From a virus, in IMG/VR virus record IMGVR_UViG_3300030019_000047, positions 1 through 51,603 of that record: 51,603 nucleotides of DNA; one strand, written 5' to 3'. A program made the translations under genes and the position numbers. Of the stretch, positions 671-49,192 are shown piece after piece. Every line of letters begins with the position of its first letter. The first letter of the stretch is position 1. The notes beneath the pieces were generated by a model. The model was not told the DNA's origin, did not search any database, and was given only the letters and a program-made list of their open reading frames with translations.

Positions 671-1920
671 CAGGCACCCCTTGGAACTACTACTATAGAA
701 CCAACAGGAAGGAGAGCCTGCTCCCATAGCTCAATAGGGATTTCCTGCCCCGCAGTCACTGTTTTGCCAGTCACTGTGACGCTTGAGATGTACAATCCGG
801 GGTACACTGCAGCTACAGCACCACTAAGCTCATATGCGGACAAATTTCTGCCGATAGTAAGACCCGGATCACCATTGATTAGACCGTTTTGATACTTGTT
901 TACAGCATCCTGAACTGCGAACTGTGGCTCATAATTACCGACCGACTGCGATGAATCATAGGTAACGACGCAGGTACAAGATACGATATCTGGCCTCGCG
1001 TGAAATATTGTGTAGGGCTGGCCGGATGCCGGTTCTATAAGTGAGGTAGTCACCGGAGTACCCTTGGCCGTCTGCCCTACTGTCCATGCTGCTCCTACTC
1101 CCTTAGCGGTCAAAAGAGCAGCGGCTATATCAGCATCGAGAGCGCCCTGTACACAAACATATATACTATTAGGGGGCATCGATATCCCATTTATGACCGC
1201 TATTGACGAGTCGTCATTATCTCGTATGGTCATGGACCGATATCCGGATAATGCGCTCACACCAGCTTTAATAGCTCTTATTGTATTACTTGATTGGGCC
1301 GCCAGTGTGCTTTTACGTCTTCTTCTGGCTGCTACATCAGACTCGGTGACTTGGCCCGTGGTCCCATCAAGAAGGTTAACTACTTTAGTAATATTAGATG
1401 GCGCAGTACTCGAAATCGACCATACTGTGTTAGCTAGAACTGGAATGGCCCCCGCAACAGCCGCCTGAAAAGTGGCTAGACCGTAATACGTGTTGGGAGT
1501 GACTGTGGTATCCACTTGGTTCAACACTACTGCGGTCTGCTGATTAAATATGTTGCCTGCCGAGTCATAGATAGCCAGCCCGGACGGGGATGTAGAGCCA
1601 TTGGTGCCGTACACCCTAGCGCCAAACACGGTGGGTGTGGATACGTAGGGGGTTCCCCCCATCAAAGAAAATAGCGAAGCTAGGAACACGCCGCCTGACT
1701 GGTCGGGATTTATCTGATTTGCGATCCCAGCAGTGTACGCAATTACGTTGGACCTAGCAGTTACTTCACCATCAACCAAACGACCTTGGGGGGTGGCATC
1801 AGTCAAGTCCATATTCGAGCCAAGAGCCAGCTTGAATTCACCTTGTACGTCAGATTTTAACGTACTTGTGTCCGGGACGATAAGACCAGTATCCCTGTCA
1901 TAATCGTAGTAATTAGCCAT
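670..1920 (-). CDS. Baseplate J-like protein
   Basis: 416 residues. The N-terminal half (MTD..TPQGRLVDGEV, then a repeated NQINPDQSGGVFLASL-type segment) and the later VTESDVAARRRR segment are characteristic of Baseplate_J proteins, which form the wedge arms of the contractile-tail baseplate and trigger sheath contraction. The start overlaps the end of the gp25-like gene by 8 bases and the stop overlaps the next ATG, so it sits in a tightly coupled baseplate operon. Length and context fit P2 gpJ/Mu gp47 relatives. Nothing is truncated. Confidence 0.9.
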   Translation of the reverse strand: MANYYDYDRDTGLIVPDTSTLKSDVQGEFKLALGSNMDLTDATPQGRLVDGEVTARSNVIAYTAGIANQINPDQSGGVFLASLFSLMGGTPYVSTPTVFGARVYGTNGSTSPSGLAIYDSAGNIFNQQTAVVLNQVDTTVTPNTYYGLATFQAAVAGAIPVLANTVWSISSTAPSNITKVVNLLDGTTGQVTESDVAARRRRKSTLAAQSSNTIRAIKAGVSALSGYRSMTIRDNDDSSIAVINGISMPPNSIYVCVQGALDADIAAALLTAKGVGAAWTVGQTAKGTPVTTSLIEPASGQPYTIFHARPDIVSCTCVVTYDSSQSVGNYEPQFAVQDAVNKYQNGLINGDPGLTIGRNLSAYELSGAVAAVYPGLYISSVTVTGKTVTAGQEIPIELWEQALLPVGSIVVVPRGA

Positions 1921-2254
1921 TTACCGACACCTTCCCGTATATTGAATTTATTTCTGCGCTGTAGGTCAAAACTTCACCATCGATATTTACTGTGAATGAA
2001 TTAACCCCCGTTACCTCAGGGTGCGAAAGAAATTCGTTGCGCATAGCCGCTTCAAACATCAGCACATCTTTAGTCAGAAAAATAGTGTCGGCGTATGGGA
2101 TTCCTCTGTCTATAGCGTACAGCATCTCAGCCCGTCTCGTTTTGCTCATTTGACCTAACGTCTGGGCCAATGCCTCCGCCCCTGACAAAATGGCTAGGTT
2201 GCCGGAGCTATCCAGATAGATGCTGTTGTTTCCATCTACTGCCAATGTAATCAT
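1913..2254 (-). CDS. gp25/gp46-like baseplate wedge protein
   Basis: 113 residues. It opens with a short beta-rich N-terminus (LDSSGNLAILSGAEALAQTL), followed by a segment around a DRGIPYADTIF motif and a C-terminal stretch with HPEVTGVNSFTVNIDGEVL. This is the layout of the GPW/gp25 and Mu gp46 wedge proteins that sit at the sheath-baseplate junction and start sheath polymerisation. It overlaps the plug gene upstream and the J gene downstream by a few bases. The family assignment comes from pattern and gene order immediately before J. Confidence 0.75.
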   Translation of the reverse strand: MITLAVDGNNSIYLDSSGNLAILSGAEALAQTLGQMSKTRRAEMLYAIDRGIPYADTIFLTKDVLMFEAAMRNEFLSHPEVTGVNSFTVNIDGEVLTYSAEINSIYGKVSVNG

Positions 2255-2577
2255 GATCGCACCGTAACTAAATCTGATGGGCTATAGTACGCAAGGAATG
2301 TAGTAACTCCGAAATCACTGTACAAAGGGTAATTCTCAGAGTCATTCCAATAGGCAAAATTTCCTCTCCCCGCTTCTTTGTATAAAGGGAGCAAGAAGTT
2401 AGGCAAAGGTCCTGACGTCACACATCTCAAACCAGTAACTAAAGCGACGCCGTTTCTGGATATGTCGACTGTCATAAAATTATTCACTGATTTAGGGACC
2501 ACTTCGTAAAAATCACTATCCTCAGTGAACGTCACTGATTGGTTAGGCAAAGTGCTTGTCAAAGACACTAATTTCAT
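2251..2577 (-). CDS. Baseplate plug protein (Pam3 gp18-like domain)
   Basis: 108 residues, almost all predicted beta strand. It contains VALVTGLRCVTSGPLPN in the middle, and GVTTFLAYYSPSDLV at the C-terminus corresponds to the conserved end of this small baseplate family. In the cyanophage Pam3 baseplate the equivalent protein fills or caps the central hub. The gene lies between the hub and gp25-like genes with ATGA-type overlaps on both sides, as expected for a minimal baseplate. I recognise the family from the C-terminal pattern; no distant search was possible. Confidence 0.65.
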   Translation of the reverse strand: MKLVSLTSTLPNQSVTFTEDSDFYEVVPKSVNNFMTVDISRNGVALVTGLRCVTSGPLPNFLLPLYKEAGRGNFAYWNDSENYPLYSDFGVTTFLAYYSPSDLVTVRS

Positions 2578-3455
2578 GCTGTGGCTGCCTTAGGATATGC
2601 TGTAAATGAAGCGTAAAAAGGAGTGTCACGGCAAGTGAGTTCATAGTCTATTTTGCCTACTACATAAGAACCATTTATTGATGGGTTCATAACGGACACT
2701 GCATTTACGGCGCACCCTAACTTCAATTCAGGTGTAAACAGAACCTTTCCCGCGATACCGAACTCTGTCCATTCAGGAATTCCTATGAATGGATTTTCGG
2801 ACCCGTACCCGATTTGAACAGTTCCCCTGGATGCCACCACTGCACCAATAGTCATGACTACCAGAGCGCTATCGTCGATAAAAGCTACTATTTGGTCCGG
2901 GTAATAACGCTGGATGTAAATCGGAATAGCCTCCAGCGTTATCATGTTGCCGCCCAAAAAATTGGTGACCGGAGCGTTGGCTAGGCTTGCTGGTAGATGT
3001 ATCTCGGGAGTCAGGCCCAAAACGCCAGCCGCCCACTGGCACAGCCCACTAAAAGTGGTTGGCAGTTTGGGCCAGTATTGGACCCATTTGGTTTTATCTA
3101 TTTGGTTTGTGGCCAAATCCATGATTACGCTGATATCTGGGGGGTTGCCCATGCTACATTTTATAACATTGCCTGTATACACCAGAGACGGCCCGTAGCT
3201 TTCACGGCCCGCTGATATATTTACAGGCAAAAAAGGCGTTTCTTGGGTTCTTAGCGCGAATTGGTTGAACCGGGTCATCATGTCTGCCCGTACTTCTCTA
3301 CGAACGTTTTTAATTTCCAACCTTGAGTTGTTTTGGATGCTAAAAACGTTCTTACCTGCTGAAAATGAGATCGCAAAATCCTCTTTATACTCCACTATAT
3401 CAGCTCCCGAGTTGAACAGGAATTGAGCGCGCAGAAGTCGAGGATCTATGATCAT
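2574..3455 (-). CDS. Baseplate hub protein (gp27/gpD-like)
   Basis: 293 residues. Order and size fit the hub that joins the tail tube to the baseplate: it follows the tape measure and a small unknown gene and precedes the plug and gp25-like genes. The protein has the beta-rich N-terminal half typical of these hubs (SAGKNVFSIQNN, RLEIKNVRREV) and a mixed C-terminal domain that ends in repeated strands. I see no cysteine or zinc motifs. The start is at the overlap with the preceding gene. Assignment is by context more than by motif. Confidence 0.6.
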   Translation of the reverse strand: MIIDPRLLRAQFLFNSGADIVEYKEDFAISFSAGKNVFSIQNNSRLEIKNVRREVRADMMTRFNQFALRTQETPFLPVNISAGRESYGPSLVYTGNVIKCSMGNPPDISVIMDLATNQIDKTKWVQYWPKLPTTFSGLCQWAAGVLGLTPEIHLPASLANAPVTNFLGGNMITLEAIPIYIQRYYPDQIVAFIDDSALVVMTIGAVVASRGTVQIGYGSENPFIGIPEWTEFGIAGKVLFTPELKLGCAVNAVSVMNPSINGSYVVGKIDYELTCRDTPFYASFTAYPKAATA

Positions 3456-3946
3456 TTTGCTCCTTTCATTTTCATGTATCTGTACTCATTCATTGCTTTT
3501 GTGAGTATTGAATCTTGCATCTCAAAAGCATCTTTCAATGAGCAGGTTGTTTTTAACTCTTGCAAAGTGGCGTAGTTATTTGTGATGATTGAATGAATAA
3601 AGGGACTTAATTGCCTAGGCTCCGTCCCCTCGAATCCATCGGTATTCGGCACACGCCAAATACGCCAACCCTGCAAGAACCCGAAATTTACATTATACAC
3701 TATCTCGGTTATCTTGTCAAGTGCCATCCAGTCATCGACATATCTGTCAATAATCTCTGGGTCTTCCAGATTTACCCATTCGTCGCCTACTTTAGCATCA
3801 ACAAAACTCATCAGGTAAATGATAGATTCCTCTGACGGCGGGCTTCCGTCATTTACCTCTTTGGACAGGTAATTTTGGGCATAATAAGCAGGAATCAGGT
3901 GAATCCTATATTTTTTATCACCCACCGTCTCTATTGTGGTGTTCAT
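3452..3946 (-). CDS. Unknown tail protein between tape measure and hub
   Basis: 164 residues. I chose the ATG at 3946 rather than an in-frame ATG at 3976 because an AAGGGG ribosome binding site lies 4-5 bases before it and it starts just after the tape-measure stop. The sequence is hydrophilic and acidic, with a tryptophan-rich middle (GFLQGWRIWRVPN). I do not recognise a family. The position suggests a baseplate or tail-tip assembly factor. A chaperone role is possible, but the usual tail chaperone slot is already filled upstream of the tape measure. Confidence 0.75.
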   Translation of the reverse strand: MNTTIETVGDKKYRIHLIPAYYAQNYLSKEVNDGSPPSEESIIYLMSFVDAKVGDEWVNLEDPEIIDRYVDDWMALDKITEIVYNVNFGFLQGWRIWRVPNTDGFEGTEPRQLSPFIHSIITNNYATLQELKTTCSLKDAFEMQDSILTKAMNEYRYMKMKGAK

Positions 3947-3947
3947 A

Positions 3948-6284
3948 CTACCCCTTAAATATGCCATCGTGCACATTAGCTATTTGCTTATTCATCGCCC
4001 CGATGACGTCGTTTATTTCTTTTCCCAGCCGTTCGCCAAAGTTTTTAGGCTCATCAGATTTGACATCCACATTAACTTCCCCGATATGGATCCCGCCCGG
4101 CTGCGGGGCATTTGCTGGCTGAGCCGATGCCCTACTTGCCTCTGTCATCCTGACCCCTTTAGCTGCCGCATCATTAGCATTTCGCATAGCATCATTAGCT
4201 CGGCTCATGGAGTCGGATGCTGATTCTCTAGACGGGGTATGTTCTGTCGGCGCGGCGGCTATAAAACGCGGTCCGGGGGCTTCAGGGACCGGCATCGCTC
4301 CGGCCTGCTTTTGAGCGTTCAAGCTAGACGCCATACCCATTCGCATAACTGCAGGATCAGGAGTGAACCGCAGCACCCGCGACCTTTTCTCAAAGTCAGC
4401 TCGGGACTGTCCTTCTATCCCGGCGTCGGGGGTGCCTAAACCGCCTGCCCTGCCGATGCCGCTGGCCCACATAGCTATTGCCTGCTCAAGCCCAACGGAT
4501 GTGTTTGTAACGATCTGGCTTAATTTCTCTTTCTCCACTTGGAATTGAGCGTCATTGGCTTGCAGCCCTTCTTTCGATGTCCCTACTAACGTTTGCAATG
4601 CGGATATCACAAGCTCATTATCGTTAAGGTTAACATCTCCCTTCTGAGCCATGTCGGCGAATTGCTTGCGTAGTTCGGCCATCTTGCTGTCATCAACTTT
4701 GCCGTAGCGTTTTTGGAACTCCCCGATGTTTTCATTGAACGACTCAGTAGCACTTTTTTGGTAATCGGCCTCTTTTTGTTTTGCTTGCGCTTCTTTTTCC
4801 TTTTTACGTAAGTCCTCGTATCCCTTCCCTTTTACATCTATCTCCTTATCCGCAGCATCTACTTCTTCTTGGGTCTTCCCTCCCAGCGCCGCAGGTATTT
4901 TACCCATCATGTGGTTTATGCCCTTCTCTAAGGAAAGACTCATGCGGTCACCCAACCCGTCCAGCATATCTGGGAGATCTTTTAATTTAGAACCAAGACT
5001 TACAATGCCCTCTATGGAGCTATTGAGCATGTGCAAAGCACCAGTCGACATGTCTATCATCAGCCTTTTAAGGACAGACATTAGAGTATTCACCGGGCGC
5101 ATATTCTTTTCGAGAGCTACTGTCTCCTTGGACCACGCCACCATGCCCGGAACGACTCTCGACCTGATAATAGTTTCTGTTTTTTCTTGTTCTACCTTTA
5201 GGCTTGCTTGCTCTGCCGTATAGTTTCTTGTTGATTGAGCCAAGATAGTTTCTTGTATGGCTTGCTGCTCAATCCCCTTGTTCATGTCCTTTACTTGATC
5301 GGACGTTGCTTCTATTATTTTGGATGCTTGATTGAAGTCAAGTCCGTACTGCTGCGTCGCTCTGGCCAGCGCGTAGTTTGTACCTTGCTTTTGAGCGGCT
5401 GTTCTGAGGTCGTCAACAATAACTTTCCAGATCTGGTCCATCCCTTCCAGATGCTTACCAGTCTGTATTTTGATACCTCTCGACCGCATTAATCTAGACA
5501 GAGGGTTGGTATCAATGCCTGTCCTCATGTCGATGCCGCCCATAGGCTGGGCGCGATGAAGAGCTACCTCTTTTATCTTTTCATTAAGCCCTGATAGCCC
5601 TTTTAAACTGTCCTCACGGCTTATACCTAGGTTCTCGCCAGCTATCTGGTGTTTTAGAAGCCCTTGGGTGTTCATACCTGCTGCCCAAGCGTCTTTTTTG
5701 GTGCTTCCGTATTTTTCTTCCGACGCTTTTGCTATGACATGACCTGACTTAACACCCCATGCGCCCGCAGCGGCTACAGCGGCAACAGCGGCAGCAATAA
5801 GGGCGACGGGGCCGCCAAGAAGGGCCAGAGACCGGGCCATGAGACCACCTGCCGTCATACCTCCTGACCCAGCTGCAGCCTCCGCCGCTGTGGCCCCCAC
5901 TTCTTCCCCTCCTGCGCCATAAGCGGCACTTGGCTTTCTCATAAGAGACTGTGCGTGTTCCATGCCAGCTGACAGGACCTTTTGAACCCCGCCCTTACTG
6001 ATCATGGATCCCACATCGCCTATCTGGCCTAAAATCCCTTTTACCTTTATCGCTCCATCTTTTACTTTTTCAAGTTTTTGATGGAATTTATCCGCTGAAT
6101 CCCCCGCCCTATTCATGGAGTCGGACGCGCCCTTGGCGGCATCTTCTACGCTTTTGATCCCTTTGTCACCAGCACTTTCGGTGGCTTTTCTAGCCTTTTC
6201 CGCTTTGTTGGTAACTGCGTCGATAGCTTTTTCGGTATCAGCCTTGTCTACTTCGTACTTTACATAGAATACATCAAATAGCAT
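3948..6284 (-). CDS. Tape measure protein
   Basis: 778 residues. The N-terminus is a long charged coiled-coil rich in K, A and E. A Gly/Ala-rich hydrophobic region around residues 140-180 (VALIAAAVAAVAAAGAWG) could insert in the host membrane. The rest is mainly helical with repeated KEKEAQAKQKEAD-type segments and a low-complexity Ala/Ser/Pro C-terminus. At about 0.15 nm per residue the tail would be close to 115-120 nm. It sits directly after the tail chaperone and second tube-like gene, the standard slot. No lytic transglycosylase or peptidase motif was seen. Confidence 0.92.
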   Translation of the reverse strand: MLFDVFYVKYEVDKADTEKAIDAVTNKAEKARKATESAGDKGIKSVEDAAKGASDSMNRAGDSADKFHQKLEKVKDGAIKVKGILGQIGDVGSMISKGGVQKVLSAGMEHAQSLMRKPSAAYGAGGEEVGATAAEAAAGSGGMTAGGLMARSLALLGGPVALIAAAVAAVAAAGAWGVKSGHVIAKASEEKYGSTKKDAWAAGMNTQGLLKHQIAGENLGISREDSLKGLSGLNEKIKEVALHRAQPMGGIDMRTGIDTNPLSRLMRSRGIKIQTGKHLEGMDQIWKVIVDDLRTAAQKQGTNYALARATQQYGLDFNQASKIIEATSDQVKDMNKGIEQQAIQETILAQSTRNYTAEQASLKVEQEKTETIIRSRVVPGMVAWSKETVALEKNMRPVNTLMSVLKRLMIDMSTGALHMLNSSIEGIVSLGSKLKDLPDMLDGLGDRMSLSLEKGINHMMGKIPAALGGKTQEEVDAADKEIDVKGKGYEDLRKKEKEAQAKQKEADYQKSATESFNENIGEFQKRYGKVDDSKMAELRKQFADMAQKGDVNLNDNELVISALQTLVGTSKEGLQANDAQFQVEKEKLSQIVTNTSVGLEQAIAMWASGIGRAGGLGTPDAGIEGQSRADFEKRSRVLRFTPDPAVMRMGMASSLNAQKQAGAMPVPEAPGPRFIAAAPTEHTPSRESASDSMSRANDAMRNANDAAAKGVRMTEASRASAQPANAPQPGGIHIGEVNVDVKSDEPKNFGERLGKEINDVIGAMNKQIANVHDGIFKG

Positions 6285-6293
6285 CTCGAAGCC

Positions 6294-6788
6294 TTAGAAT
6301 ATAGACAGAGCAGCGTTGGCCGCAGCTGATATTAAACCTTTTACTGAGGCTGTTGTGCACTCAGCAAATATGAACTCGAATTGCTTACCCTTTCCTCTGC
6401 CCGCTTCACTCATCGAAGTGCCTAACGGGCCGCTTCTGATGTACCCCCTATCTAACACGATAGGGGGCTGGTTAGGGAACAGGATGCTCATGATCATCAA
6501 GTCAGGAATACCGCCTATTCTGAAGATTGACTTGTTACTACTTAGCATAATAGTTAAGTTATCGTCATCTTCAGAACCGGCTATAACCCCTATTTTAACA
6601 GTGACCGCCGATGCTGTCTCAAATGATATGATGTCACCATCAACCAAGAATTCATGATCTGCTACCTGAGATTCACTGAACTCTATGGGGGAGACATCAT
6701 CCGAGAATTTAGATATCGTCAATCCTACCGGGAAGGTTTTAGTTGCAATTAGGCTGATAATAGTGCCAAAACCGCCGATATTATCCAT
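6294..6788 (-). CDS. Second tube-like protein (paralogue of the tail tube)
   Basis: 164 residues, clearly related to the 149-residue tube protein encoded at 8591-9040. Both start M(D/Q)N(I/V)..FG, share TFP.G(L/F).(I/M)F.DD..P near residue 20-35, share a VDGD/INGD motif before a strand, and share AGSEDDDN/PGSEDDEN in the centre. Both end in a KGKQFEFIFAE/KSKTYNFAFEG strand. A tube-fold protein placed between the tail chaperone and the tape measure might be a tube initiator or the ring that joins tube to hub. It overlaps the chaperone stop codon (TAATG), with an AGAGGA binding site. Confidence 0.7.
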   Translation of the reverse strand: MDNIGGFGTIISLIATKTFPVGLTISKFSDDVSPIEFSESQVADHEFLVDGDIISFETASAVTVKIGVIAGSEDDDNLTIMLSSNKSIFRIGGIPDLMIMSILFPNQPPIVLDRGYIRSGPLGTSMSEAGRGKGKQFEFIFAECTTASVKGLISAAANAALSIF

Positions 6789-7207
6789 TATTGATCCTCT
6801 TTGCCCTGATTAAGGACATCACGTAGATTTTCACCGATGGCGTCGCCCATTACTTTGGTCAACCGTACCGTGATCCACGACTCTACCTTTCCTAGGATCC
6901 CTTTGGCGGTGCCGTCGAAGAACTGCGGTGCGTTATATTTTAGGGACTCAATTTCAATAGCCACCAAATCCGACCAATCAGCGATGTGGTTGTCAATCAA
7001 GGAACGGGTGCTCAATGGCTGGGCAGTCCCGTCTGATAACACCACTTCAACATGAGTCATCAGACGCAGCATAACTTCTTCATTGCGCTCGTACTCTTTG
7101 CTGTGCAGCATCATGCTTAGTGGGTATTGCGCCACAATGGCCCTGCCTGCTAAAGCCCCGAATTTGTTGATGCGGTAAGTTTTCCCGTTGAGTATCAATT
7201 CTTTCAT
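6788..7207 (-). CDS. Tail assembly chaperone
   Basis: 139 residues. It starts with MKELILNGKTYRINKFGALA, the opening of a widespread family of phage tail assembly chaperones encoded just before the tape measure, which bind the nascent tape measure and recruit tube subunits. An AAGGAAA binding site precedes the ATG. I looked for a slippery heptamer near the 3' end that would give a longer -1 frameshift product and saw none that was convincing; the following ORF starts independently. The role is inferred from family pattern and position. Confidence 0.75.
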   Translation of the reverse strand: MKELILNGKTYRINKFGALAGRAIVAQYPLSMMLHSKEYERNEEVMLRLMTHVEVVLSDGTAQPLSTRSLIDNHIADWSDLVAIEIESLKYNAPQFFDGTAKGILGKVESWITVRLTKVMGDAIGENLRDVLNQGKEDQ

Positions 7208-7215
7208 GATTTTCC

Positions 7216-7761
7216 TTATTTACCTACGCCTGATGCCATCATAGTTCTGGCTTGATCGGCGGGAGGCATTGCTGTTTGAGTCTGCCCGCGTTTTACTGTG
7301 CTGGCATCACTTGGGGACTTTACTTTGTCCTGAGTCATCGTAGTTGATGACGCGGCCTGCGTTATTTCATGCATAGTAAAAGAAACGGGAATCGCATTTA
7401 AAACCTTAGAATCACGGACCGGAATAAACTCTCCGAACGTGCAATTTTCTACGATGATCTCTTTTATCTGTATTCCATATAGATTTTTTCGGTCATTAAA
7501 TAGTTGCTGCATTTTGCTGTATGAATCTTGGTCTATGCAGAAACCTTCTACCTGAACCGTCCTAGGCATGATGATCTTATGGTCTGTTAAAAAATCACCA
7601 TTTTCTGTAGGGTGCTGTGGGGTGTCAGCTTGGTGGGTGGCCTGTGCGCTTTTTATTTTAAGCCCTATCACCTCTGATAACGAAGGTGACAGCATATCAT
7701 ATATTTTGTATGCTTTCCGGTTTGTTAACGCAGCGCCTAATGTAGAGCCTACTTGAGCCAT
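7216..7761 (-). CDS. Dit-like tail/baseplate protein
   Basis: 181 residues. The central segment reads ADTPQHPTENGDFLTDHKI followed by IMPRTVQVEGF, the hallmark of the Dit-like N-terminal domain found in tail-tip and baseplate proteins of many siphoviruses and myoviruses: a conserved acid after HP, then TDH, then a proline-rich strand. The C-terminal third is Ser/Thr/Gln-rich and probably disordered. It lies unusually far upstream, between the spike and the chaperone, rather than beside the hub. Function as a hub adaptor is inferred. Confidence 0.65.
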   Translation of the reverse strand: MAQVGSTLGAALTNRKAYKIYDMLSPSLSEVIGLKIKSAQATHQADTPQHPTENGDFLTDHKIIMPRTVQVEGFCIDQDSYSKMQQLFNDRKNLYGIQIKEIIVENCTFGEFIPVRDSKVLNAIPVSFTMHEITQAASSTTMTQDKVKSPSDASTVKRGQTQTAMPPADQARTMMASGVGK

Positions 7762-7764
7762 AAT

Positions 7765-8526
7765 TTACGATCCAAATGGGCCTACGCGCCCACCTTCAGG
7801 GTTAGAGTGAGTGTGGCCGCCTACAGCCGTACCGGCCACAGTGAGACTATCAACAGATGAACCGCCTGCACCGCCGCTGGATGTAAAGCCAGATTGCATA
7901 ACAGTAGCCCCTGCTATGGTGACGTTCCCGGAAAAGCGGCTATCTGCCGATACCACATCAAGAAGGCCCATAGTGGTTAGAGTTATTTTACCATTTACTA
8001 ACTCGACGTAGGTTTCGCCTGCAGCTATTTTTACGCGACCTTGACCTATAGCCACCCTATTATTCCCGTCTACACTCTGCAGCACCATTTCATCCGCATG
8101 TTCTCCCCTAATCACATATCGACGCATCACGTCAGGTAAAAATAAACTATCCGAGAATGTGTGTGTTCTACATGTATTAGGAGCACCTTCAGATAGGCTA
8201 ATTTTAAAGGCGTCTAGATCGCGATCAGACGCCTTTATCCAGCCTAGGTCGCCAGCCACTAGAGGAAAGTTTAGGTGATAACCACCCCCGCCAAACGAGA
8301 AAACCTGCAGCCCTACTACTTGGTTCCTTGGTACTACTTGGTTGTCAACCGTGATCCGGCTTACTAGTGGTTTCACGGTTGCAGTGTTACTGACCCTGTC
8401 GTACGACATAATCACCGCCGGTAAACAGTCGTCGATGTTAAGAAAATAATCTCTTAACATTTTATTTAATGCCGATGGTGTCGACTCATGGTCCGATGGG
8501 TTTACTGCCGTAGCGGCGGTGGTCAT
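7765..8526 (-). CDS. Gp138-like membrane-puncturing spike
   Basis: 253 residues from the ATG at 8526, which has an AGGAGA site; the longer open frame upstream runs through a promoter and hairpin and is not used. The N-terminal part (LPAVIMSYDRVSNTATVKPL) matches the OB-fold of the phi92 gp138 spike family. The C-terminal half is a repetitive beta structure that ends in a Gly/Ser-rich region with GGHTHSNPEGG. The His-x-His motif is the iron-binding tip seen in P2 gpV and phi92 gp138 spikes. The gene is transcribed from its own strong promoter at 8566-8594. Confidence 0.8.
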   Translation of the reverse strand: MTTAATAVNPSDHESTPSALNKMLRDYFLNIDDCLPAVIMSYDRVSNTATVKPLVSRITVDNQVVPRNQVVGLQVFSFGGGGYHLNFPLVAGDLGWIKASDRDLDAFKISLSEGAPNTCRTHTFSDSLFLPDVMRRYVIRGEHADEMVLQSVDGNNRVAIGQGRVKIAAGETYVELVNGKITLTTMGLLDVVSADSRFSGNVTIAGATVMQSGFTSSGGAGGSSVDSLTVAGTAVGGHTHSNPEGGRVGPFGS

Positions 8527-8543
8527 TTTTCTTCTCCTAAAGA

Positions 8544-8565
8544 AAAGGACGGTTTCCCGTCCTTT
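8544..8565 (-). terminator. Hairpin just downstream of the spike promoter
   Basis: A perfect 9-bp stem (AAAGGACGG/CCGTCCTTT) with a GAAA tetraloop, followed on the minus strand by TCTTTA. It begins directly after the -10 box. It could be an intrinsic terminator for transcripts coming from the tube gene, a 5' stabilising hairpin for the spike transcript, or both. Confidence 0.6.
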
Positions 8566-8594
8566 ATTATACCATCCACACAACTTTCTGTCAA
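8566..8594 (-). promoter_or_regulatory. Sigma-70-type promoter for spike gene
   Basis: TTGACA (8594-8589), 17-bp spacer and TATAAT (8571-8566): a consensus match with an extended TGG before the -10. The TGA stop of the tube gene forms part of the -35 box. Confidence 0.85.
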
Positions 8595-9040
8595 GCCGAG
8601 GTGATGCCCTCAAATGCAAAGTTATATGTTTTTGACTTCTGACGTTGTGACTGCTGGATGCCATTGGTTGGCATGCCATCAGTCAGAATACCTTTGGACA
8701 GAGTGTAAGATCTTGCCCCGTCACCCGGATAAATGACAGAAATACTTATTTCATCACTGGCGATGGACTTACCTTTACCCGGTCGGTTGGCTTCGAACAG
8801 CACACGCATGTTCTCGTCGTCCTCGGAACCGGGGATGACGTTAAAACTAACGGTGATGGGATTAGCCTTTGACCAGTGAACCATGTCACCGTTGATACCC
8901 ATCCCTTTGTCAGCAATCTGGATGCTAGGCACATCAAAAGGGTCAGCATCATCTGCGAACATAGTCAGAGGGAAGCCATTCGGAAAGGTATTGCTAGCCT
9001 TAACTGTGGCCACAAAACCAAAAGCACTTACGTTTTGCAT
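8591..9040 (-). CDS. Tail tube protein (DUF3277-like)
   Basis: 149 residues, immediately after the sheath and preceded by AAGGAGATATAAATG. The compact beta-rich sequence with NGFPLTMFADDADPFDVPS, a NGDMVHWSKA segment and PGSEDDEN matches small tail tube proteins of the DUF3277 type, which stack as hexamers around the tape measure. Its paralogue at 6294-6788 has an extended C-terminus. Gene order of sheath then tube is standard for myoviruses. The last codon overlaps the -35 box of the spike promoter. Confidence 0.8.
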   Translation of the reverse strand: MQNVSAFGFVATVKASNTFPNGFPLTMFADDADPFDVPSIQIADKGMGINGDMVHWSKANPITVSFNVIPGSEDDENMRVLFEANRPGKGKSIASDEISISVIYPGDGARSYTLSKGILTDGMPTNGIQQSQRQKSKTYNFAFEGITSA

Positions 9041-9050
9041 TTATATCTCC

Positions 9051-10670
9051 TTAGATCAGCACATCAGAGCCAACCACACGGCGGATGACGTCGTCCTTGG
9101 AGTAAACCAAGGTGTAATTAAACTGCCATTCAGTCAATGACGACTGCGCATTAACCGTTGATGATAGGGTGGCGTTGATCCAGTACCCGGCGACCTGCAC
9201 TTGGTGCCACGCCTTGTCCGACCCTGTGATCTGCGTGATATATGCTTTCTGTGTTGCATTTAAAGGCTTACCCACAGAAATAGTACCATTCGTCAATGCG
9301 GTATCGATGGTGCTTTGCATATTAAGCAACAACTGGCCGCGTCCGATTTCATTGGCAGATACTTTCATAGCCAACAACAGACTGAGGATGTTGGACAGAA
9401 ATGCGTCCTTCAGCCACATCTCGTTAGCGTAGGTGTTCATGTCGGTGGCGGAGGTAGCGCCGCCCATCAAAACGCCACGTTGATAAAAGGCGATCTGCTG
9501 ACCGGCTGTCATAGTGACGCCTTGGTAGTTCACGCGGATCCCATCAAGGGCATCAGATACTGCAGTGTCCCCCACAGACCCGGCATTAGCAACCAAGTTG
9601 CCTTCTGAGTCAGCAGTGAAGCTACGGTCGGTGAACTGATAGTACATATAGCCCTGAGTACCATTGGTAGCCGTGTAGTCAGTCGCAGCCAAAATCTCCA
9701 TAGGAGACTGAGCTTGGAACAGCTCTGAGTCAGTAGATGGAGAGCCACCATTATCTTGGGTCAAAGTGAACCCGCAGCCGCCAATACCCATAAAAGTAGC
9801 GTACCATGCTTGGGTGGCCTGTGAGCGGGTCACGTAGTGGGAGAAGATAAATTTGTTGTTAAACGCAGCGTTCCACAAGGCCACGTCCTGCGGGCGGTTG
9901 CCCACTACAGAGGACTGCCAGTCATCAAGCGCATCGATAAAGGCAAATGAGCCAAAATTATCGCTCTTGTTGGTGGTTCGGTCCATTGTTTGCACAGCAT
10001 TATCGCCGACACGACCTGCTGAAGACGTAAAATCGCCATCTGCAAAGCCCAAAAGGACTGACGCATCATTAGACGCAGCTGCTGTGATGATGATCGACCC
10101 TGCAGTCGTACCCGTCGACCCGGTGATGATCAATCGGTTGGACGAGATGTTGTAAACAACCGTGGCCCCCGCAAGGGCAGAGATGCCAGCCGCTGCTGTT
10201 TGAATAGCTGTTTGGATGATCGGGGCAAGATCAAGAAAGCTTGATGCTGGGCGGGCATCAAATCGAACGGAGACTGCAGATGCAGAGCCGTATGTAATTT
10301 GAAATCCAGCATTAGCAGACATTGCTTGGATCTGGCTCAAAATAGTCGGTGTTTTCGGTGTTGAATTACCGGTAAACACTGGCGGAATGAACGTAGTCGT
10401 GTCCCAACGCACAAAAGACATCATCGGCGGTGACTTGACGTCTTTGTTTACGAATTTAAAGTAAGCCAATGCTCGGCGATATTCAGGTGACGAGACATCA
10501 TTGTTGAATTTAGCCAGAACCGCTGGTGCGCTTTTTGCCTCGAAGATGGTGTCCCGAGACAAAAAACTTGACTTAGTGATGAAACGGCCTACTAGCTGGC
10601 GCGTCGCCACGCCAGCCCCGGCACCCACACCGGACGTGATGTTGATATACTTAGTGATGTCGATTGACAT
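9051..10670 (-). CDS. Contractile tail sheath protein (DUF3383-like)
   Basis: 539 residues. It begins with the short beta segment MSIDITKYINITSGVG found in DUF3383 sheaths. The central region includes a DDWQSSVVGNRPQDVALWNA-like alpha/beta segment and a conserved MGIGGCGFTLTQDN stretch, and the C-terminus is beta-rich and ends in a SLTEWQFNYTLVYSKDDVIRR strand pattern. It forms the outer contractile tube, docked to the neck terminator at one end and the gp25-like wedge at the other. Position after the neck genes and before the tube gene confirms it. Length is in the normal range. Confidence 0.9.
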   Translation of the reverse strand: MSIDITKYINITSGVGAGAGVATRQLVGRFITKSSFLSRDTIFEAKSAPAVLAKFNNDVSSPEYRRALAYFKFVNKDVKSPPMMSFVRWDTTTFIPPVFTGNSTPKTPTILSQIQAMSANAGFQITYGSASAVSVRFDARPASSFLDLAPIIQTAIQTAAAGISALAGATVVYNISSNRLIITGSTGTTAGSIIITAAASNDASVLLGFADGDFTSSAGRVGDNAVQTMDRTTNKSDNFGSFAFIDALDDWQSSVVGNRPQDVALWNAAFNNKFIFSHYVTRSQATQAWYATFMGIGGCGFTLTQDNGGSPSTDSELFQAQSPMEILAATDYTATNGTQGYMYYQFTDRSFTADSEGNLVANAGSVGDTAVSDALDGIRVNYQGVTMTAGQQIAFYQRGVLMGGATSATDMNTYANEMWLKDAFLSNILSLLLAMKVSANEIGRGQLLLNMQSTIDTALTNGTISVGKPLNATQKAYITQITGSDKAWHQVQVAGYWINATLSSTVNAQSSLTEWQFNYTLVYSKDDVIRRVVGSDVLI

Positions 10671-10681
10671 ACATGTTTCTC

Positions 10682-11230
10682 CTAGTCGGGCACTTGATAT
10701 ACATTCAGCACCACTTTATCAGTGCTATCAACTACGACACTGGTTACGGTTTGGTGCGTAAGAACTACTTCAAAAGTAGGCCATGCTTCGTTGCGATGTC
10801 TGTCATCTTCAAAATAAGTGTTGTCTATTTTTTGGATTCTAAGCACGTTAACGTTACTTGAGGCCAACATCCTGCGTATTGTATCTCTTCGCTGAAGGAT
10901 ATTGGCCAAATAGTTTGATATATCGCTGGCGGTTACTTGATTTACCGTCATCGATGGAGTTAGGATAACTAAAGCGCTCACTTGAAAAGTAGTTTCCATG
11001 TGCTGCGTTGTTGTTTCTGTGTTCTGTGTTGGTGAAGGTCCTGCAGTGGTTACCATGCAGGGCATGCCATATCTGTTGTCAAACAGTTTTTGAAAATACA
11101 CAGCATTTTCTGTAGGTATGCCTTGTTGCGTTGATTGACTTCTCTGTACTACCGGGTAGTCCCACCCCACCATCGCCAGACCGCTTATAAGCGTCGAGCG
11201 GAACAGCCGAATTAGGTCAGCATCAAGCAC
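10682..11230 (-). CDS. Neck/tail terminator protein (gp12-like gateway)
   Basis: 182 residues. The N-terminus has LIRLFRSTLISGLAMVGWDYPVVQRSQ, then QQGIPTENAVYFQKL, and the C-terminal half is beta-rich with HMETTFQVSALVILTP. This pattern is shared by phage neck terminator proteins of the gp12-like/LIC_12616 type, which cap the tube and sheath before head attachment. The start overlaps the end of the previous neck gene by 8 bases, and the gene directly precedes the sheath. Confidence 0.7.
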   Translation of the reverse strand: MLDADLIRLFRSTLISGLAMVGWDYPVVQRSQSTQQGIPTENAVYFQKLFDNRYGMPCMVTTAGPSPTQNTETTTQHMETTFQVSALVILTPSMTVNQVTASDISNYLANILQRRDTIRRMLASSNVNVLRIQKIDNTYFEDDRHRNEAWPTFEVVLTHQTVTSVVVDSTDKVVLNVYQVPD

Positions 11231-22559: not shown

Positions 22560-23255
22560 TCAGTGAACAGTTGGGTCAATAGACATCGGTTTTGTGGGCT
22601 GTGTGGCGGCCATATCATCCCTATCAAACATGATGGCCTGTCCTTCATTTTCCCCCACTGCTTTGCAAATGTCAATATACGCTGCCATATGTGCGCATAT
22701 CATAACCCCTAACGATTGGCTGTTGTTCCACACTTCATCGCCATGAGTTTCAAAATATCGACCTAATTTACGAGAATGCATGCTAACAGCGATAACCGAC
22801 GACACACCTGCCGACGTCTCTTTATATTCCCCGGTAAAAGGGTCGTGGTCAGAATGCCCGTGCTTGATGGCCATCAACATCTCAAAACAAGATGGTCTCA
22901 CCTTTCCTGACAAAGCTATCTCCGCTGATTTTGCTCTTAGGTCATCATATCTGCGGGCATATTCTTCTTTAGAGGTGGCTTCAGATATGCCCAGATATTT
23001 GTTCATAGCAACCGCAAGCATCCCGGCAACTATGATACACCCATTTCTAACATCAGAAATAGCATAATCAGAAAAAGCTTGAGGCCCTTTCCGCGCTACT
23101 TCTGAAAGGATGATTCTCGCTTCAAGAGCCGAGGCAACTATGATGCCAACTCGGTCATCAAGGCGAATATCTTTATCAAGGTTTAAGCTGAGGGCTAGAC
23201 CGGCCACCACATGATAGATCAGGTTTTCTTTAAAAGGTTCTATATTGAGCTTCAT
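22560..23255 (-). CDS. Unknown protein, last gene of the leftward early block
   Basis: 231 residues, with a clear AGGAGA site before the ATG. Not recognised. It is mostly helical. IIVASALEARIILSEVARKG and CIIVAGMLAVAMNKYLG are amphipathic or hydrophobic helices but too short and interrupted for confident membrane spans. There is a His-rich AIKHGHSDHDPFTGEY segment and a C-terminal NEGQAIMFDRDD. The start overlaps the stop of the hexapeptide-repeat gene (ATGA-type), so they are co-translated. Function unknown. Confidence 0.75.
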   Translation of the reverse strand: MKLNIEPFKENLIYHVVAGLALSLNLDKDIRLDDRVGIIVASALEARIILSEVARKGPQAFSDYAISDVRNGCIIVAGMLAVAMNKYLGISEATSKEEYARRYDDLRAKSAEIALSGKVRPSCFEMLMAIKHGHSDHDPFTGEYKETSAGVSSVIAVSMHSRKLGRYFETHGDEVWNNSQSLGVMICAHMAAYIDICKAVGENEGQAIMFDRDDMAATQPTKPMSIDPTVH

Positions 23256-23752
23256 TTGGTTCTCCTGTGTGATTCTTTTTCTCGACGAATTACATCTTGG
23301 TGCGGGTCAACCGCTAAGTCGGGTCGTCCTGACAAAAACATGGACCCGACCCCCACAATAACTGGTCGCGTGAATGTGGGCCTATCACCGAACCAAGATT
23401 GGTCCCCGATGCGGATGTGGCTTCCCATAAACGAGCAACGATCCCCGAACGTACACTCACTGCCGAATGATGAGCCATTATTGAAGATAGCCCCTTTTAG
23501 GGTGTAGGTGTGGTGGCCGAAATAGCACCCTGCCCCGAACGATACGTCATTCTGGATTCTCGCCCGGTTCCCGATCACACAATGAGTGCCCACTAAAGAG
23601 TGGTGGCCGAACGACACACCATCCCCAAACCGGCATCTATTGCCGATGTGGCAGTGATGGCCTATCTCAGAATAGTTAGGGAAAATGGTGTCTTCACCCA
23701 CCATCGTAAACGGCGGAACGATATACCCGCCACGAAGATTTTTGTCGAACAT
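23252..23752 (-). CDS. Hexapeptide-repeat protein 1 (left-handed beta-helix)
   Basis: 166 residues. From about residue 30 to 125 it repeats a six-residue unit with (I/F)G at positions 2-3 (HIGNRC, RFGDGV, SFGHHS, LVGTHC, VIGNRA, ... SFGAGC, YFGHHT), the signature of left-handed beta-helix proteins such as acyl- and acetyltransferases. No catalytic loop is evident, and it is shorter than typical trimeric enzymes, so a structural or binding role is as likely. A related protein is encoded at 24345-25016. Good GAGGG site before ATG. Confidence 0.75.
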   Translation of the reverse strand: MFDKNLRGGYIVPPFTMVGEDTIFPNYSEIGHHCHIGNRCRFGDGVSFGHHSLVGTHCVIGNRARIQNDVSFGAGCYFGHHTYTLKGAIFNNGSSFGSECTFGDRCSFMGSHIRIGDQSWFGDRPTFTRPVIVGVGSMFLSGRPDLAVDPHQDVIRREKESHRRTK

Positions 23753-23929
23753 CTATTTGCCCTCGGAAATGTTGCTAAGCATTTTATTTATGTCGATGCA
23801 CATCGAGGCGTTTGCGGCTGCTTCTTCGTTGCTGTGGTCGCACATAAGCTGCAGAAGCAACTCATTTTGGAAGCTGATCAGAGCCATTTTAACAGTCAGT
23901 ATTTGGCTCGGCGTAAGGTCTAGTTTCAT
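23753..23929 (-). CDS. Small unknown protein
   Basis: 58 residues. The ATG at 23929 has a GGAGAG site and sits 29 bases after the promoter -10; a longer in-frame start at 23986 would precede the promoter and is not used. The sequence is one helical region (SQILTVKMALISFQNELLLQLM) followed by an acidic tail, compatible with a small dimer. No family recognised. Confidence 0.65.
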   Translation of the reverse strand: MKLDLTPSQILTVKMALISFQNELLLQLMCDHSNEEAAANASMCIDINKMLSNISEGK

Positions 23930-23957
23930 TATACTCTCCGGTGTGTTTGATGTAATC

Positions 23958-23986
23958 ATTATACCACATTTTTGAAATGCTGTCAA
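23958..23986 (-). promoter_or_regulatory. Promoter within the leftward early block
   Basis: TTGACA (23986-23981), 17-bp spacer and TATAAT (23963-23958), with TGTGG before the -10. The spacer has a GCATTT/AAATGT dyad. Confidence 0.82.
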
Positions 23987-24079
23987 TCATATATCGCATC
24001 AATGAGAGACACGGGAAGGCGTTTTGTATTTTTGAGGTATATCTGTGGGGATGTAGGTCAGAAAGACAAAGGGAGAAAG

Positions 24080-24106
24080 CCGGGGAAAGCTCGTTGGCCG
24101 CCCCGG
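24080..24106 (-). terminator. Probable terminator upstream of the 23958 promoter
   Basis: Stem CCGGGG/CCCCGG with a 15-base loop, followed on the minus strand by the pyrimidine run CTTTCTCCCTTTGTC. It lies in a 134-base gap after the gene that ends at 24121. The loop is long and the U-tract interrupted, so confidence is moderate. Confidence 0.45.
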
Positions 24107-24120
24107 AATAGTGCGCAGGT

Positions 24121-24348
24121 TTATTTGATTTGTGACGCCATGATCTCTTGGCGTTCGCTTTCTTTAAGGCCGAGCCACACTTTAGCTAACTGACGAGAAC
24201 GCTCTTTGCTGTGGCCTTTCTCCATAAACAGTTTAATCAATGTCTTTTTACTGCGACCCTTATAAAAACTGTTGGGACCCTTACGGGGCTGATGGCTATC
24301 GGCAGGCCACACCTCGGGCTTGTCTTGAACTATTTCATGCGGGATCAT
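24121..24348 (-). CDS. Small basic protein
   Basis: 75 residues. The C-terminal two-thirds is a helical basic segment (SKKTLIKLFMEKGHSKERSRQLAKVWLGL) that could form a helix-turn-helix-like DNA contact. The N-terminus is proline-rich. The start overlaps the stop of the second hexapeptide-repeat gene (ATGAATG context with an AGAGG site). No family recognised; a nucleic-acid binding role is only a guess from composition. Confidence 0.7.
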   Translation of the reverse strand: MIPHEIVQDKPEVWPADSHQPRKGPNSFYKGRSKKTLIKLFMEKGHSKERSRQLAKVWLGLKESERQEIMASQIK

Positions 24349-25016
24349 TCATCACCTCTGCTGCCAATGATGCATTTGCTCTGGACTACTGGATGTCTTC
24401 CCTTCCAGCCGTCCTCAATAGTGACACCTGTCTCCAAATGGACGGGGGCCTCAAACGTAGCTAAAACATCAACAACCGAGTCTTGGCCTATTCTGGCACT
24501 GCCGTGGAAACTGGAGTTAGCCCCGACATAACATCTGCTCCCCAAAACTCCCCCAAACCAGAAAGTAGCGCATTCTCCGATGACAGTGCGGCTCCCCACC
24601 ACTATTGCATTGAATTTGGAATGGCCGCCGATATTGCAGCGTTGACCGATGGTAGTATGCCCGCGAAACAGACATGAACAACCGATAAACACATCATCAG
24701 CCACGACCACACCATTGAAACCGCAAAAGCCCCCAATAACGCTTCTGAACCCGATAGAACAACCAATACCAAACGACGCGTAACTACCAATGCGGCATCT
24801 TGAACCAAATGAGCAATATGCTCCGAACGAACAATTAGTGCCGAAAACGACACCATCCATGAACGCGCAGTTGTCGCCGAATCTGGTGTCATCAGGAATG
24901 ACGCTGCCTGCGGGTATTACTGTACAATCCGGGATTTCATACCCATAAACATTTTCGTTTTGTGCGTTAGAGCTTACTACGCGCTTAGGGAATCTTGTGA
25001 CATCAAAATGACTCAT
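24345..25016 (-). CDS. Hexapeptide-repeat protein 2 (left-handed beta-helix)
   Basis: 223 residues from the ATG at 25016, preceded by GGAGAGATAAAATG. About residues 45-190 repeat a six-residue unit: VFGTNC, SFGAYC, SFGSRC, RIGSYA, SFGIGC, SIGFRS, VIGGFC, then later TIGQRC, NIGGHS. Cysteine is strikingly frequent at the sixth position. The fold should be a left-handed parallel beta-helix. It lacks the loops and histidine expected in acyltransferases of this fold. Related to the protein at 23252-23752 but with more coils. Function unknown. Confidence 0.75.
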   Translation of the reverse strand: MSHFDVTRFPKRVVSSNAQNENVYGYEIPDCTVIPAGSVIPDDTRFGDNCAFMDGVVFGTNCSFGAYCSFGSRCRIGSYASFGIGCSIGFRSVIGGFCGFNGVVVADDVFIGCSCLFRGHTTIGQRCNIGGHSKFNAIVVGSRTVIGECATFWFGGVLGSRCYVGANSSFHGSARIGQDSVVDVLATFEAPVHLETGVTIEDGWKGRHPVVQSKCIIGSRGDE

Positions 25017-25052
25017 TTTATCTCTCCAGACAACCACGTCCTTGTGGTCGCA

Positions 25053-34181: not shown

Positions 34182-34210
34182 ATTATACCACGGGCCGAAG
34201 CCCGTGTCAA
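34182..34210 (-). promoter_or_regulatory. Promoter with perfect stem in spacer
   Basis: TTGACA (34210-34205), 17-bp spacer and TATAAT (34187-34182), with GTGG before the -10. The spacer region contains the 7-bp stem CACGGGC-TTCG-GCCCGTG, running to the extended -10. Confidence 0.88.
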
Positions 34211-49163: not shown

Positions 49164-49192
49164 TTGACACCGCCACAGGGATGTGGTATAAT
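49164..49192 (+). promoter_or_regulatory. Promoter for the 49269 gene and polymerase
   Basis: TTGACA (49164-49169), 17-bp spacer and TATAAT (49187-49192), with TGTGG before the -10. The spacer contains CCACA-GGGA-TGTGG. The stop codon of the previous gene is just before it. Confidence 0.88.

Follow-up and report, generated by a model that had tools for sequence, protein, structure and literature searches.

A tail tube protein and a paralogue assigned as its probable baseplate tube ring in a 51,603-nucleotide virus record

Two members of one tail tube family are encoded on the minus strand of the window, i.e. the whole stretch of 51,603 nucleotides of IMG/VR record IMGVR_UViG_3300030019_000047. 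The first (149 aa, 8591..9040, hereafter tube-A) is very probably the tail tube protein, which builds the many stacked rings of the tube, and the second (164 aa, 6294..6788, hereafter tube-B) a paralogue of ancient origin that has taken on the role of baseplate tube ring, present as one hexamer. By sequence, tube-B is the orthologue of gp36 of phage E217 and gp37 of phage Pa193. The phage of the window represents a distant branch of a two-tube design already known, to which it adds a different gene order and the presence of one ripcord gene only.

Sequence comparison shows the two proteins to be true paralogues. BLASTP aligned them over their whole common length with 43/149 identities (29%, 52% positives, E 2e-25), and the shared N-terminus, GSEDD.N motif and end strand described in the sequence-only reading are all real in this alignment. 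Their Smith-Waterman score was 211 (2000 shuffles: mean 31, maximum 61); when either was aligned with six further tail and neck proteins from the window, the scores were 20-36. Both also pass the curated cut-off (27 bits) of PF22764, the E217_Gp32 tube family, with 184 bits (1.3e-54) for tube-A and 130 bits (6e-38) for tube-B. The family carries the misleading name "tail fiber protein gp32".

The type of each copy was assigned using PDB sequence searches, type-specific profiles and a protein tree. The best PDB matches of tube-A were the tail tubes Pa193 gp33 (2.1e-37) and E217 gp32 (2e-31), baseplate proteins being weaker. For tube-B the ranking was reversed: Pa193 gp37, named "baseplate tube" (PDB 9b45), came first (2.8e-29), followed by E217 gp36 (3.8e-29, 38% identity), and the tubes were found at 2.5e-17 and 8.2e-13, the baseplate-tube matches being at least 12 orders better. 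Tube-B scored 232 bits against the tube-B profile and 110 bits against the tube-A profile, and in all loci with two copies such profiles separate them by 68 bits or more. A tree of 35 proteins, with the long branch of Burkholderia phage Bm1 left out, places the 164-aa protein within a clade of 13 tube-Bs (support 97/96; 73/77 when this very long branch is included). The aligned tube-Bs, the 164-aa protein among them, continue for about 15-20 residues at the C-terminus, an extension that the tubes do not have.

Structure prediction of both copies, which had been proposed as a check, gave models that match tube-fold chains in each case. The tube-A model (pLDDT 82) has TM scores of 0.85-0.86 to the Pa193 and E217 tubes. 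The AlphaFold2 model of tube-B (pLDDT 71) has the main strand and helix order of the tube-A model, plus a weakly predicted C-terminal helix; the top matches in the fold search were the two baseplate chains of E217 and Pa193 (probability 1.00, TM 0.69-0.76, rmsd about 9), and plain tubes match it nearly as well. The predicted tube fold alone does not separate the two roles. Weak fold matches of the tube models to AFP and PVC baseplate chains were also observed.

In E217, the tube-like gp36 forms a hexameric ring that is concentric with the tube and holds gp37/gp38 (PMC10329688), and gp37 has the same layout in the baseplate of Pa193 (PMC11042391). In both phages the first protein alone makes up the 34 rings of the tube, and cryo-EM shows the second as one baseplate ring that sits at the junction of the last tube ring with the baseplate cap (PMC10329688, PMC11042391). 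For Pa193, the C-terminus of tube-B is stated to touch the sheath initiator, with numbers that may be those of E217 (PMC11042391), and the present assignment does not rest on this contact. By analogy with these cryo-EM structures, the 164-aa protein would be present in six copies, as a single hexameric ring at the baseplate. A ring at the tube end or a distal adaptor was the first option of the sequence-only reading, and this is the role of the orthologue in both structures. A heteromeric tube, whose shaft would contain both paralogues in mixed rings or in alternation, had been the other option; it would be in keeping with their common fold and family, but it is very improbable given the E217 and Pa193 shafts, made of the first protein alone, and the confinement of the second protein's orthologue to one ring.

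The assignment of tube-B as the baseplate ring leads to the following scheme. A hexamer of tube-B would top the ripcord/hub/spike assembly, as suggested by the E217 and Pa193 structures, and would adapt the repeating tube to the baseplate by offering a first tube-like surface, or start point. Hexamers of tube-A would stack onto this ring around the tape measure and inside the sheath, the stacking order being taken from general tail biology. Tube-fold ring(s) joining tube to baseplate are also known as the tube initiators Afp5/Pvc5 of extracellular injection systems and T4 gp48/gp54, but the likeness is one of role alone, no sequence match to them having been found in the PDB search with either paralogue.

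Homologues of E217 gp25-gp34, gp36, gp39 and gp41-gp45, and one gene matching both gp37 and gp38, were found in the window, which covers all of the cap/adaptor partners (gp33, gp34, gp37/38, gp41, gp43 and gp44). The order on the minus strand is tube-A, tail spike/tip (E217 gp43-like; 7765..8523, likely start 8523; PF18352 7.4e-14, E217 gp43 4.1e-42), ripcord/Dit-like baseplate protein (7216..7761; PF21821 1.4e-11, PF22760 8.3e-7, E217 gp37 8.6e-7 and gp38 5e-4, PDB 8eon_A and 9b45_S), tail assembly chaperone, tube-B and tape measure. The chaperone is of G type and E217 gp39-like (139 aa, 6788..7207; phmmer 2e-5 to gp39; a weak PF21822 Phage_TAC_15 match below the cut-off; hhalign 9.4e-27 to the chaperones of single-tube phages), and its stop overlaps the tube-B start. 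The putative tape measure (778 aa, 3948..6284) was recognised by position and size, and has homologues in the equivalently placed ORFs of Aeromonas phage Gekk3-15 (9e-24) and of Bm1 (3e-17). The second tube copy does lie directly before the tape measure, as had been noted. The two copies had also been described as flanking the chaperone, which is indeed between them, but so are two more genes (spike and ripcord/Dit-like).

The same strand carries an E217 gp42-like gene (3452..3976, 1e-8) that resembles the GT fusion of a frameshifted chaperone, the baseplate hub (E217 gp41-like; 2574..3455; PF22759 1.2e-53, gp41 1.7e-37), an adaptor/helical bundle protein (E217 gp33-like, Pam3 gp18 family; 2251..2577; PF22479 1.9e-10, Pa193 gp34 3.8e-7, E217 gp33 1.3e-6), the sheath initiator (E217 gp34-like; 1913..2254; 6.6e-15) and the 539-aa tail sheath (E217 gp31-like; 9051..10670; PF11863 1.9e-76, gp31 9.5e-99). 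Sheath family PF04984 was sought in the genome and gave no match, because the window sheath belongs to PF11863. The relative L014, located on a 63.7 kb contig, has the same gene order as the window. A role of the second tube copy near the head, in the tail terminator or a neck ring, would be in line with the tube fold common to many neck rings and with weak fold matches to neck chains; it is extremely improbable, since the window has a gene of its own for a homologue of E217 gp29, the tail terminator (10682-11230, 6.5e-29), and the second copy's orthologue has its place in the baseplate.

The closest known counterpart is E217 gp36, the "tail tube-B" of a Pbunavirus (PDB 8env, 8eon), which is likewise a tube paralogue of the same family and clade with a C-terminal extension; E217-type sheath, hub, spike and adaptors surround the window tube-B. 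However, gp36 lies between gp35 and gp37, whereas the window tube-B lies between chaperone and tape measure, and E217 has two ripcord genes (gp37 and gp38, forming a heterodimer below the ring) where the window has one, so that what lies beneath the ring differs between the two phages. Such a heterodimer is not what defines the ring. The same differences apply to Pa193. Bm1 and Gekk3-15 both agree with the window in having tube-B flanked immediately by chaperone and tape measure, and Bm1 also shares the spike right after tube-A and the single ripcord gene; its tube-B, however, is very diverged, and Gekk3-15 differs by two ripcord genes placed after the hub. A second gp37/gp38-like gene was looked for in the window and in L014, and only one such gene was found in each. 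A single ripcord gene is thus seen in the window and on the Bm1 branch (L008, 14576-15259), and two of the gp37/gp38 type in Gekk3-15, BcepF1, the wifceviruses and E217. The gp37/gp38 heterodimer may have arisen after tube-B.

Two alignable tube genes had been presented as unusual. This may hold for myoviruses generally, but not here: a protein search with tube-B matched 369 phage records at 724 places, and two copies, which had been proposed to be looked for in relatives, were present in 60/60 records among the matches listed. Nearly all of the 369 records hold two tube copies, and the two-tube design is ordinary for this phage group and already explained by E217 and Pa193. The tube was matched at one place only in, e.g., Yersinia phage vB_YenM_P744, Bordetella phage vB_BaM-IFTN1, Erwinia phage RF1 and Leptolyngbya phage Lbo-JY16. 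Such single-tube phages and their metagenomic relatives have the order sheath, tube, chaperone, tape measure, and no hidden tube-B came up when a tube-B profile was run against the ORFs of 12 loci, eight of them covering the stretch from sheath to baseplate J. Scans with the tube-Bs of Gekk3-15 and Bm1 found no viral contigs.

In an unrooted tree of five tail and head proteins, nine two-tube and eight single-tube genomes are split by one branch (support 100/100). As the root of this tree is not fixed, the split is compatible with gain as well as with loss of tube-B. Every two-tube phage in the sample lies to the same side of this branch, which makes the duplication older than their split. A recent redundant duplication without distinct role, to which membership of both copies in one Pfam family might point, has next to no probability and is refuted, unless the tree is seriously in error, by the 35-protein tree, each copy being nearest to copies of the same type in other phages and not to its neighbour, and by the position of the two-tube phages on one side of a single branch.

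The chaperone also appears to differ between the two groups. Single-tube loci were examined for a chaperone frameshift (L004-L007, L021, L022, L024 and L028): the minus-one frame that overlaps the chaperone end encodes a T-like segment in 8/8, with a T TTT TT(T/C) slippery site in the overlap in six of the eight. None of the two-tube chaperones at 10 loci searched for a frameshift has a T-rich slippery site together with a T-type overlapping ORF. When compared by hhalign with the G-T fusion as built from the predicted shift, the 174-aa product of 3452-3976 and related proteins align over 160 columns (2.7e-25); their alignment to the G-type chaperone is weaker (8.2e-9, 78 columns). Classical frameshifted G/GT in single-tube phages versus a G-only chaperone with a separate GT-like gene past the tape measure in two-tube phages may be the newer result, the putative gene split being supported by sequence and synteny. 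Tube number (one or two) and chaperone form (fused or split) change on the same single branch, and their association therefore counts as one event and not as repeated evidence. That tube and chaperone were duplicated together, with two chaperones sharing the assembly of tube, baseplate ring and tape measure, is a tentative idea that we regard as somewhat less probable than its contrary.

Directly after tube-A and before the baseplate genes, a predicted promoter and hairpin were found on the minus strand (8538..8594). The promoter (TTGACA-17-TATAAT, 8594-8566, with TG before the -10) matches the consensus at 12/12 positions, and is followed by a hairpin with a T-rich tract (about 8563-8538; RNA fold z -2.9). 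The hairpin was not among the predictions of the terminator scan. Both elements are kept in L014 (7199-7260), and an inverted repeat and a promoter-like TAAAAT occur at the matching place in Bm1 (L008, about 9460-9520). We infer that promoter and hairpin would uncouple the strongly needed tube from the downstream baseplate genes, and they may set the tube/baseplate expression ratio.

The window contains 11 perfect TTGACA-(17/18)-TATAAT sites (0.01 expected by chance), nearly all with TG before the -10, for example at 8566-8594, 34182-34210 and 49164-49192, and these are interpreted as a phage-wide set of predicted consensus promoters. One perfect site (3692-3720) precedes the hub gene and lies within the GT-like gene. 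Elsewhere, two ORFs of the window with 166 and 230 aa (23252-25037) consist of short repeats such as FGxxCxFG and resemble, by eye, left-handed beta-helix (hexapeptide) proteins.

The assignment of tube-A and tube-B corrects the database name "tail fiber protein" for both members of the tube family, and the two-tube design reaches well beyond Pbunavirus. The single-tube sister group is a natural comparison for the passage from tube protein to baseplate adaptor, and comparison of single-tube with two-tube phages could possibly show how tail chaperones lost or acquired programmed frameshifting.
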